Shown one piece after another: positions 7,774 through 16,798 of a stretch of DNA of 20,451 nucleotides; positions within the stretch are counted from its first letter, which is position 1, and each line of letters starts with the position of its first letter. This DNA comes from Minisyncoccota bacterium (GTDB lineage: Bacteria > Patescibacteriota > Minisyncoccia > Minisyncoccales > Minisyncoccaceae). The DNA is taken from NCBI GenBank assembly GCA_028690275.1, contig JAQVBN010000002.1, positions 1 to 20,451 on the forward strand, read 5' to 3'. Below the pieces are notes generated by a model. It worked only from the letters and a program-made list of their open reading frames with translations. It ran no database searches and was not told where the DNA came from. A program made the translations under genes and the position numbers.

Positions 7774-7802
7774 ACAATACCAAAAAGGTTAAGAATTGTC
7801 AA
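7774..7802 (-). promoter_or_regulatory. Strong promoter of the secE operon
   Basis: On the minus strand a consensus -35 TTGACA (7797-7802) is followed after exactly 17 bases by TATTGT (7774-7779), with the extended -10 TGG just before it. Only GACTTT lies between the -10 box and the secE ATG, so the predicted start falls at or next to the A of the ATG. The -35 box contains the TGA stop codon of the preceding prepilin-like gene and overlaps its terminator hairpin. Confidence 0.75.
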
Positions 7803-7823
7803 TTTTTACCTAACAATTCAACC
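7782..7823 (-). terminator. Probable terminator of the pheS-pheT-gyrB-pilin operon
   Basis: On the minus strand a GAATTGT/ACAATTC stem of 7 bp is extended by GGTT/AACC beyond a two-base bulge and followed by TTTTT. The loop is 13 bases. The hairpin covers the last codons and the TGA stop of the prepilin-like gene and also the secE -35 box. The bulge and large loop make it weaker than the other terminators here. Confidence 0.5.
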
Positions 7824-8671
7824 CTTTCGTTATATTCTTCTTTTGAGATTAAATTTTTAGCTAGCATAGAATCCAAACCAGCGATATATTGTTGTCTGAT
7901 TTGAGATGAAGTTAGAATTCCTTTATATAGTCTAGCGTCGTCAATGTATCCGATAAAAGGTATTCCTGGCGTTGCTCTAAAATCACCACCAACTCTTACC
8001 GGCCAAGCAAGATTCAATATTGTCCCTGCCGCACTTTTACTAGCTCTCACCTCACCATCAATATATAGTTTTACAATATCGTTGTCTAAATCGTGCACAA
8101 AACCTACAAAATGCCAATTGTTATCCCGCAAATCTTTGTTTGTAACAGAAAAATCAATTTGTCCAGCATTCCAATAAAACCTCAACCTTCCTAATGAAAG
8201 GACCTCTAACGCAAAATGGGGAGAATGAGAATAGTTGCTCACAACAGCTCCAATTCTCGTAGCGTCTGAAACGCTAGAAGAAATTTTAATCCAAGAAAAA
8301 CCCGAAAACTCATTACTTACCCCCATCAAATTACTTCCTCCACAATCAATATAACTAGTATATCCATCAAAGCTATAACAACCACCAGAAGCACATTCCC
8401 CCAAAGAACTATCTTTATAGGTCGCATTATGAATAGTGCAATTATTAGCTTTGCCAGTATCTTCCCCCAAATCAAAAGTATTGTCAAACTTCCATTCAGA
8501 TAATAGATCATACCCTAATTGTGCTTGAGTGGTTGTAGAAAAAGCCTGAGCCTTAGCAAGTATAGCTTTATCTGTAGAACTAGCGGTAGACACTAAAATC
8601 ACTCCCGAAAGAATACCAATAATGGCAATCACTACCAAAAGTTCGATTAAGGTGAATGATTTATTTTTCAT
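7799..8671 (-). CDS. Prepilin-like surface protein with LamG domain
   Basis: The 290-residue protein begins with a type IV prepilin N-terminus: charged MKNK, then SFTLIELLVVIAIIGILSG, with the conserved Glu five residues after the likely cleavage site. The residue before the cleavage site is Ser rather than the usual Gly. After a short helical spine (to about residue 60) comes a LamG/concanavalin-like jelly roll (about 75-265), with the typical NNWHFVGFVHD, LYIDGE and GYIDDARLYKG strands. The end (ISKEEYNERVELL) resembles the short helical SHOCT-type tails. It is probably exported through a type IV pilus-like machine and displayed on the surface for attachment; the ligand cannot be told. It follows gyrB after 3 bases and ends the pheS operon on TGA. 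Confidence 0.85.
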   Translation of the reverse strand: MKNKSFTLIELLVVIAIIGILSGVILVSTASSTDKAILAKAQAFSTTTQAQLGYDLLSEWKFDNTFDLGEDTGKANNCTIHNATYKDSSLGECASGGCYSFDGYTSYIDCGGSNLMGVSNEFSGFSWIKISSSVSDATRIGAVVSNYSHSPHFALEVLSLGRLRFYWNAGQIDFSVTNKDLRDNNWHFVGFVHDLDNDIVKLYIDGEVRASKSAAGTILNLAWPVRVGGDFRATPGIPFIGYIDDARLYKGILTSSQIRQQYIAGLDSMLAKNLISKEEYNERVELLGKN

Positions 8672-14458: not shown

Positions 14459-14465
14459 ATTGGGG

Positions 14466-14539
14466 CGGACCCGACCGGACTCGAACCGGCAGCCCCCTCC
14501 GTGACAGGGAGGTGCGATGACCAATTTCGCCACGGGTCC
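14466..14539 (-). tRNA. tRNA-Asp (anticodon GTC)
   Basis: The cloverleaf is complete: acceptor stem GGACCCG/CGGGTCC with discriminator G, anticodon stem CCTCC/GGAGG around loop CTGTCAC (anticodon GTC), and a T-arm with loop TTCGAGT. The 3' CCA is not encoded directly after the discriminator (the DNA reads CCCCA), so it must be added. It is the last of three tRNAs in the operon. Confidence 0.93.
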
Positions 14540-14547
14540 AACTTATG

Positions 14548-14619
14548 TGCCAGAGGTGAGAATTGAACTCACGGCGTCTCGCTTATGAAACGAGTGCTCT
14601 ACCACTGAGCTACTCTGGC
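14548..14619 (-). tRNA. tRNA-Met (anticodon CAT), elongator type
   Basis: The acceptor stem GCCAGAG/CTCTGGC is fully paired with discriminator A. The D-arm is GCTC-AGTGGTA-GAGC, the anticodon stem CTCGT/GCGAG holds loop TTCATAA, and the T-loop is TTCAATT. The paired 1-72 position and pyrimidine-11:purine-24 pair (C:G) mark an elongator. A tRNA-Ile whose CAT is modified to lysidine cannot be excluded from sequence alone. CCA is not encoded. Confidence 0.88.
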
Positions 14620-14636
14620 CTCTGGTTTTAAAAATG

Positions 14637-14707
14637 TTGCGGTTCTTGGAATTGCACCAAGGCCTCCAGCTTATGAGACTGGCGAGATACTACTTCTCCA
14701 AACCGCT
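14637..14707 (-). tRNA. Initiator tRNA-fMet (anticodon CAT) with unusual elbow
   Basis: Initiator identity rests on an A1 x A72 mismatch above the paired GCGGTT/AACCGC, the A11:U24 pair in the D-stem (GAGA/TCTC), and the loop CTCATAA; overall it aligns well with E. coli tRNA-fMet. Two features are odd. The anticodon stem CCAGT/GCTGG has A-U, G-C and U-G at 29-41, 30-40 and 31-39, not three G-C pairs. The D-loop AGTAGTA and T-loop TGCAATT have A18 and G55 where G18 and U55 are expected. The length is 71 bases without encoded CCA. It leads the three-tRNA operon. A degenerate copy is possible, but acceptor, anticodon and T-stems are intact. Confidence 0.82.
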
Positions 14708-15952: not shown

Positions 15953-15955
15953 TCA
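15953..15955 (-). other. In-frame UGA codon splitting the surface-protein gene
   Basis: The frame reads CCT GAT CTA TGA AGT TCT GTT TCT TGG AGC, that is PDL-stop-SSVSWS, and remains open on both sides for hundreds of codons. In related Cys repeats that I remember, this point is commonly Gly (G-S-x-V-S-W), and GGA to TGA is a single change. A nonsense mutation, readthrough or a sequencing error would all give this picture. Confidence 0.85.
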
Positions 15956-16798
15956 TAGATCAGGAAAAGATGGAAAAGAAGAAACATTACCCGTCTCACA
16001 AAAAGATTCTAATCCATCATAATCAGTTTCTGTAATATATGTTCTTGCGGCTGCGCCACAAGTTCCATTAATAACTGTGGTTGATACTAACAATCCTTTT
16101 TCTAAAGAACCTGCAAACAATACAAGATCATCCATATAAAAAAGACTATTAGCACTACAACCAAGACACATACTAGAACCTCTATTAAAAGAATCAACAT
16201 TGACTGTCTCTGAGGCAAAAACATCTCCATCTATAGTCCCCACAAAAGTTTCGTCTGAATTTAAACTACCACAAACATAATGCCATTTATTGTCATAGAT
16301 ATTCTTTCCAGTGTAAGTAACAGTATTATATGTCGCATCAGCATAATAAATATTAAATGAAACAATTCCTGAGGTGGTGTAAATCTTAAAATCATTTGTT
16401 CTTTCTAGAATATCAACTGATGTGGCGGTTGGTTTTATCCAAAAACAAACAGTGCTAAATTTTTGGCTATTTGAAAAAGAAACATTAGCCACATTAGAAT
16501 TAATACAATTATTTCCTTCTGGACAATTATTTACTTTAGTTAAAGTTCCTCCTGTCGTTCCAGTAATACCAAGCCTACCAGAATCATACAACAAAGCCGT
16601 TTCTATTCCCTCCATTTTCCATTCAGCAACTAAGGTTCCACCTATTTTATTTTTAATATTGTTAGAATAAGCAGCAACTTCATCCATATAAGCTTTATCT
16701 TTCCAATCATTAACACCATAAACCATAATCCCTGATAAGACCCCAACAATACTAACAACTGTTACAAGTTCAATTAAAGTAAAAGATTTGAGTTTCAT
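15953..16798 (-). CDS. Prepilin-like LamG surface protein, upstream part of the interrupted gene
   Basis: The 281-residue product starts with a type IV prepilin N-terminus: MKLK, then SFTLIELVTVVSIVGVLSG with the conserved Glu and again Ser instead of Gly before the cleavage site. A LamG-like domain follows (about 85-235), with CFWIKPTATS, NKWHYVCGSL, GTIDGDVF and YMDDLVLFAGSL. The end enters a Cys repeat (NGTCG...) and stops at UGA inside that repeat. The ATG overlaps the TGA of the preceding membrane-protein gene (ATGA), so it is translationally coupled to it. If the UGA truly ends translation, the product is a short LamG pilin without the FISUMP domain. It resembles the other prepilin-LamG protein at 7799-8671 in plan. 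Confidence 0.75.
   Translation of the reverse strand: MKLKSFTLIELVTVVSIVGVLSGIMVYGVNDWKDKAYMDEVAAYSNNIKNKIGGTLVAEWKMEGIETALLYDSGRLGITGTTGGTLTKVNNCPEGNNCINSNVANVSFSNSQKFSTVCFWIKPTATSVDILERTNDFKIYTTSGIVSFNIYYADATYNTVTYTGKNIYDNKWHYVCGSLNSDETFVGTIDGDVFASETVNVDSFNRGSSMCLGCSANSLFYMDDLVLFAGSLEKGLLVSTTVINGTCGAAARTYITETDYDGLESFCETGNVSSFPSFPDL

Follow-up and report, generated by a model that had tools for sequence, protein, structure and literature searches.

The tRNA cluster of the window

The window analysed here is a 20,451-nt stretch (contig C72) of a Patescibacteria genome, a 524-kb draft that is 90% complete. It contains a row of three tRNA genes on the minus strand, encoding tRNA-Asp(GUC) (14463..14540), elongator tRNA-Met(CAU) (14547..14619) and initiator tRNA-fMet(CAU) (14637..14707). 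ARAGORN and Rfam both report the first two genes. The tRNA-Asp has the usual elbow, and the elongator tRNA-Met, which the initial annotation had correctly described as normal, carries G18/U55 in loops AGTGGTA and TTCAATT by sequence reading and serves as an internal control. Two proteins among the housekeeping genes of the window (7799-8671 and 15953-16798, both on the minus strand) start with a putative prepilin-like leader.

The initiator gene was located by ARAGORN at 14636-14707 and by the Rfam tRNA model at 14637-14707 with 54.4 bits (gathering score, 29); the tRNA call rests on these two programs, as the minimum-energy fold of the gene differs from the cloverleaf. Its anticodon, CAU, occupies positions 14673..14675 (minus strand) according to ARAGORN and to our reading of the sequence. 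The D-stem, the anticodon stem (with one U.G), the T-stem and the acceptor positions 2-71 to 7-66 all pair, the variable loop has 4 nt and lacks position 47, and CCA is not encoded. The 7-nt D-loop (14688..14694, minus strand) reads AGTAGTA, i.e., A14 G15 U16 A18 G19 U20 A21, with A18 at 14691 and G19 at 14690, while the T-loop (14650..14656, minus strand) reads TGCAATT, i.e., T54 G55 C56 A57 A58 T59 T60, with G55 at 14655 and C56 at 14654. The D-loop numbering was anchored on T8, A14, A21 and the D-stem, and, because AGTAGTA has one G after G15, the assignment of G19 rests on C56 and on sister genes of equal length that show GG at 18-19. Every base was thus found to be as the initial annotation had read it, with both loops departing from the usual at positions 18 and 55 and with G19 and C56 kept.

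In addition to a CAU anticodon within a tRNA fold, which ARAGORN and Rfam report here, an initiator is expected to carry a purine 11-pyrimidine 24 pair, present in this gene as A11-U24 (A-U or G-C in 129 and U-A in 2 of the 131 distinct initiators described below), and to lack a Watson-Crick pair at 1-72, where the usual C1.A72 is replaced by an A1.A72 mismatch (among a larger set of 228 distinct initiators, A.A or C.A in 179 and A-U or U-A in 20). The three G-C pairs expected at 29-41, 30-40 and 31-39 are absent as a set (A29-U41, G30-C40, U31.G39). However, all three occur in only 23 of the 228 distinct phylum initiators, the commonest first pair being A29-U41, so this departure reflects a relaxation across the phylum; given the other features and the lack of a better candidate gene, we still call the gene an initiator.

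Rfam gives 25 tRNA matches in the genome of the window, and ARAGORN finds 26 genes in those loci, including 2 whose anticodon is CAU. A third CAU tRNA, which could serve the lysidine route, was not seen in these loci; a tRNA-Ile with a UAU anticodon is located at 2897-2973 of locus L001 (contig C22). An apparent G18/G55 elongator at L001, also an Ile tRNA, was an out-of-frame reading and proved normal when reparsed.

Conservation of the initiator gene

The initial annotation had favoured an altered elbow over decay. The simultaneous alteration of two normally near-invariant bases might raise suspicion of a sequencing error or of a pseudogene kept as a spare copy. Nevertheless, a BLAST search with the window gene matched 45 of 59 relatives from the same genus, family and order, and A18 and G55 were both present in all 29 that were read among these 45, relatives found by their similarity to the window gene. 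The identical two changes recur in 34 distinct initiators of the model-based set described below, and the stems of the window gene pair. Additionally, no second initiator-grade gene was seen in two closed genomes, where the next-best match reached at most 54 bits versus more than 91 bits for the initiator, and the only other CAU tRNA in the tRNA loci of the window genome is the elongator. Decay or error has, in our opinion, a negligible chance of being the explanation; the conserved gene, the lack of a second copy and the covariation of 18 and 55, which has no exception among the genes read and extends through no fewer than 13 changes on the tree (see below), uphold the altered elbow. Based on these comparisons, it is very probable that the window gene is the working initiator tRNA of this organism and that A18-G55 takes the place of G18-U(psi)55 as the tertiary contact between the D-loop and the T-loop, with a geometry and a functional equivalence that we infer.

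A scan of genome contigs for the A18/G55 pattern, which required GCAA at positions 55-58 and gives no frequencies, returned at least 112 stretches, and 110 of the 112 listed read as initiator genes. The genomes with an assigned phylum belonged mostly to Parcubacteria groups (Staskawicz-, Zambryski-, Kaiser-, Giovannoni-, Nealson-, Andersen- and Adlerbacteria, among others); one of the listed stretches was from WWE3, two were titled Saccharibacteria and 50 of the 112 had no phylum in the taxonomy. The G18/U55 initiator sequence of E. coli was matched in 5375 of 5426 E. coli genomes.

Several stretches from the pattern scan deserve separate mention. L143 was a chance match. L162, on a contig titled Dehalococcoidales, is a tRNA-like oddity with CAU, A18, G55, C33 and an A53-T61 end of the T-stem, either a damaged copy or an odd tRNA. 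L142, on a contig titled Nitratireductor sp. HKST-UBA69 (60% G+C; a title outside Patescibacteria), holds an intact A18/G55 initiator, which is either a case of mis-binning or a true case from outside the phylum. L109 and L116 are initiators with an unusual D-arm outside the fit of our parser, and they are A18/G55 by pattern.

Covariation of positions 18 and 55

The relationship between the two positions was surveyed with an initiator covariance model (R1) whose rows were 26 A18/G55 sequences and a single G18/U55 sequence, that of E. coli. The model matched 270 of 286 phylum genomes, leaving 16 without a match. Initiators were read in 109 of the 270 matching genomes, from 29 returned loci and 80 hand-picked places, the other 161, that of the window included, lying outside this reading; 82 were G18/U55, 27 were A18/G55 and none was mixed, after three rows had been corrected by eye. 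Two of these rows, L201 and L205, had appeared as G18/G55 due to a 20a insertion (AGTAGCAA), and the third, L186, had appeared as A18/U55 in a gene cut by the contig end; by eye, all three are A18/G55. Rows that appeared to be fMet with C55 turned out to be either elongators or copies whose reading was one base out of frame.

Both states also coexist within families. In family f91 (27 genomes, 25 matches), to which the WWE3 contig L121 belongs, 6 of the 23 initiators read were A18/G55 and 17 were G18/U55; in f89 (4 genomes), the counts were 3 and 1; in f96 (14 genomes, 11 initiators read), they were 1 and 10; and in a draw of 36 genomes from the class of the window (28 matches, 27 initiators read), they were 12 and 15, with no mixed initiator in any of these samples. 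Two f91 genomes that are 95-97% complete, G103 and G209, gave no match to the initiator model after 150 candidates had been scored in each, which may reflect an assembly gap, strong divergence or an intron-bearing gene.

The pooled model-based set comprised 205 loci, of which 167 were parsed, yielding 131 distinct initiators; loci selected by pattern and BLAST relatives were excluded. The parser left positions 18, 19, 55, 56 and 58 unconstrained, assumed a 7-nt T-loop, which fits these genes, and demanded T8, A73, a base other than C at 11, the absence of G-C and C-G at 1-72 and the formation of 18 of 20 pairs; odder initiators were dropped as a result, one of which, at L369, reads G18/U55. 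The 131 initiators divided into 97 G18/U55 and 34 A18/G55, proportions that are biased and are not frequencies, as the model is nearly all A18/G55 rows and scores that state higher. None of the 131 was mixed, although 38 of the 205 loci, many of them elongators, remained unparsed, and an initiator that had diverged or was of mixed state would receive a low score and might escape detection. Positions 19=G, 53=G, 54=T, 56=C, 58=A and 61=C were invariant in all 131, so that the G19-C56, T54-A58 and G53-C61 pairs are kept; the larger set of 228 has a single C54 (L049). In 29 of these 228 initiators, of both elbow states (e.g., L047, L053, L055, L172 and L174), C33 replaces the near-universal U33 (loop CCCATAA).

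The mutual information between columns 18 and 55 was 0.826 bits, which equals the entropy of column 18 and is the possible maximum. After average-product correction, 18-55 ranked 8th of all column pairs, behind seven helical pairs only, and was the top non-helical pair; the same analysis recovered the known tertiary pairs 15-48 (9th) and 22-46 (12th). Positions 18 and 55 therefore covary in the initiators read, a conclusion that we hold with high confidence and that answers the test proposed in the initial annotation. That annotation had also suggested that relatives with G18/U55 would point to a pseudogene or a sequence error. Such relatives do exist in other families and at the phylum level, but they differ from the window gene at both positions jointly, which supports an altered elbow rather than refuting it.

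Recurrence on the rpoB tree and comparison of sister genes

Because the relatedness of the sequences inflates mutual information, a tree-based test was used. The rpoB gene was sought in 60 hand-chosen genomes, 30 per state, and was found in 59. On the resulting tree, a quick, one-gene tree of genomes chosen by state in which 15 of 56 inner branches are weak, the elbow state changes 19 times on the best tree, and at least 13 changes are forced by well-supported branches. Both positions change together in 13 of 13 independent pairs (sign test, p 0.00024), under a joint label whose agreement was read gene by gene; when 18 and 55 were coded apart, 12 or 13 of the 13 pairs agreed, the shortfall being due to one parser slip. 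A mixed reading of genome G187 in the tree coding was rejected, as its loop AGAGGTA is G18/U55. Control positions 1, 9, 13 and 33 showed no such link on the tree (median p 0.22 or more).

The state was no more clustered on the tree than shuffled labels (19 changes versus a shuffled mean of 20), partly as a result of choosing contrasting genomes. This scatter could be accommodated by a single origin of the A18/G55 gene followed by its spread through transfer or gene conversion. However, in f96, the A18/G55 gene L189 differs from the G18/U55 genes L321, L322 and L325 only at 18, 20, 55 and 57; in f91, L278 and L282 differ only at the same four positions, and the differences between L277 and L280 lie at 18, at 55 and in the T-stem pair 50-64. 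Identity between sisters in the L278/L282 and L189/L321 comparisons is 67/71 or 68/72. Apart from the elbow loops and, at most, a single T-stem pair, these A18/G55 genes are thus the same as their G18/U55 sisters; between lineages, in contrast, A18/G55 genes diverge widely in their stems and variable loop. Conversion would also need to take two loops at opposite ends of the gene while sparing the middle, and spread from one origin is, in our judgement, very unlikely. The joint change of the two partners in the genes read suggests that evolution in many ultra-small Patescibacteria repeatedly swapped one working elbow joint for another.

Position 57 follows the elbow state to some extent: A57 was found in 33 of 34 A18/G55 versus 28 of 97 G18/U55 initiators. 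On the tree, approximately 7 of 13 pairs change in the same way and 0.2 in the opposite way, the rest showing no difference, a moderate link (median p 0.016, range 0.002-0.22). This link is unsurprising, as residue 57 sits between the 18-55 and 19-56 pairs, according to a passage of PMC7912444. In raw counts, U20 occurs in 33 of 34 A18/G55 versus 47 of 97 G18/U55 initiators (three of the 97 being misread as G20), but the link of position 20 is absent on the tree (median p 0.63) and is not claimed.

TruB and the loss of U55

The initial annotation had expected the change at 55 to remove the target uridine of TruB. The uridine is indeed gone, but a TIGR00431 search of the genome of the window gave no TruB candidates, and TruB presence did not follow the elbow state elsewhere. 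Loss of TruB, and hence of psi55, might have freed position 55 so that the switch followed, and this would fit both the window genome and the 31 of 70 tested genomes, many of them drafts, that have no TruB match. Nevertheless, matches occurred in 21 of 40 A18/G55 and in 18 of 30 G18/U55 genomes (34 of these 39 matches reach the family cut-off), so TruB presence shows no link to the elbow state at the tips, and TruB loss does not explain the switch there. Additionally, 24 of the 25 unique non-initiator tRNAs parsed from the loci of the window genome keep U55, the remaining one having C55. Overall, we consider TruB loss quite unlikely as the origin of the switch.

A18/G55 in elongator tRNAs

Among the R1 loci, A18/G55 was found in 33 of 132 initiators versus none of 160 parsed elongators, after the exclusion of one spurious hit (L301); the initiator count becomes 36 of 135 if L201, L215 and L259, which have U11-A24 and were typed by the script as 'eMet', are added. 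This preference would be expected if A18-G55 were an initiator badge read by IF2, the formylase or the P site, or serving exclusion from elongation factors. The proposal would also fit the place of the initiator as the first tRNA to occupy the P site, and a destabilised elbow slows translocation according to a passage of PMC4810234. However, G18/U55 does the same job in sister genomes within one family, and A18/G55 elongators exist. Six pattern-selected loci (L085, L087, L098, L104, L132 and L167) from Zambryski-, Nomura-, Kaiser- and Adlerbacteria carry an A18/G55 elongator tRNA-Met, and searching 383 class genomes for A18 and G55 together with a GCTC D-stem gave 16 genes from 15 of them (Met 9, Phe 5, Thr 1, Val 1), with an A18/G55 tRNA-Cys gene lying close to one of the Phe genes. 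As some elongator tRNAs (for Met, Phe, Thr, Val and Cys) share the pair, it is not an initiator badge as such, and a badge role of the kind described is unlikely; the exchange appears instead to be an option open to tRNAs in general and used most often by the initiator.

At L446 (genome G702, from the order of the window), a tRNA-Phe(GAA) and a tRNA-Cys(GCA) located approximately 900 bases apart are both A18/G55, and several elongators may have switched in this genome. Among the parsed elongators, neither single-change combination (A18 with U55, or G18 with G55) occurred. G18 with C55 recurs in a minority of elongators (at L030, L039, L065, L070, L082, L110, L282, L369 and other loci), mostly tRNA-Met(CAU), which the loci over-sample, as well as Thr, Arg and Gln tRNAs.

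A probable compensatory elbow pair

The data fit the exchange of one solution for another, with 19-56, 54-58 and 53-61 constant while 18, 55 and partly 57 move, and they are best read as pointing to a compensatory alternative elbow pair. Position 55, the second residue of the T-loop, would begin the U-turn. Such a turn can be started by U, as in UNR, and also, to judge from GNRA loops, by G. Residue 18 would slot between 57 and 58 and pair with 55, so the purine at 18 would have to match, with G facing U55 and A facing G55. Passages of PMC4810234 describe residue 18 as intercalated in the T-loop and joined to 55, where the T-loop turns, and they name L5, the L1 stalk and RNase P among the partners that recognise the G19-C56 face. 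As G19-C56, T54-A58 and G53-C61 are unchanged, the flat elbow surface offered to the ribosome, RNase P and processing enzymes would be kept. The phylum flips repeatedly between the two solutions, mostly in the initiator and occasionally in elongators, with A18/G55 tending to be accompanied by A57. We have moderate confidence in the base-pair geometry proposed for A18-G55; the two elbow pairs would be functionally equivalent, and our guess is that the preference of the initiator stems from its exemption from A-site delivery.

A broader proposal is that 18-55 acts in Patescibacteria as a two-state switch between functional equals. Exchanges would have occurred clearly more than a dozen times, with no intermediate surviving, and would favour the initiator as the only tRNA exempt from delivery to the A site; those parts of the reduced ribosomes that read the elbow (uL5, uL1 and the L1 stalk) would have evolved compensations for the change. 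We put this forward tentatively, as a possibility that we consider less probable than its converse.

These initiators offer a large natural experiment, in which the elbow pair has been exchanged time and again in an essential tRNA, present as a single copy in the two closed genomes tested. The matched genes that are four bases apart could be used to examine the role of 18-55 in folding, initiation and the first translocation, and they provide a clean case of double compensatory evolution in a tertiary, non-Watson-Crick RNA contact. Such genes may be scored or annotated wrongly by tRNA models, and by modification predictions, that assume G18/U55.

Comparison with known systems

The closest reference is the canonical G18-psi55 elbow, whose psi55 is called universally conserved in passages of two reviews (PMC7912444, PMC4810234). 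The pair described here is alike in its place, in the T-loop frame (T54-A58, C56-G19 and purine 57) and in its inferred role, but both partners are replaced by A18 and G55, and no uridine is available to TruB. Another T-loop exception linked to the initiator is that of eukaryotes, where A54 takes the place of U54 according to part of PMC7912444; that exception affects the 54-58 pair, whereas in Patescibacteria 18-55 is affected and T54 is kept in 131 of 131 initiators. Metazoan mitochondrial tRNAs, some of which are described in a passage of PMC4810234 as having no elbow, also depart from the universal elbow, but there the contact is lost, while in Patescibacteria it is exchanged.

In the open-licence literature (subscription papers were outside the search), we recognised no earlier report of an A18-G55 tRNA or of this initiator trait in Patescibacteria/CPR. 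The elbow contact itself is already known; what appears to be new is an initiator tRNA in which the elbow pair has an alternative form and covaries. In laboratory-selected suppressor tRNAs, Doyon, Zagryadskaya, Chen and Steinberg (J Mol Biol 2004) reportedly described a 'specific purine trap', in which U55 needs G18 and G55 needs A18. The features of that trap are reportedly the 55/18 rule, T54-A58, a purine at 57 and a 7-nt T-loop. G55 with A18 is found in the window gene and in the model-based set, where all 34 A18/G55 initiators have T54 and A58, and position 57 is A in 33 and G in one. The Patescibacteria case differs in being natural, genomic, recurrent over a phylum and seen mainly in the initiator. 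It would be a natural, recurrent instance of the laboratory rule, with nature using a joint first reported from a laboratory library.
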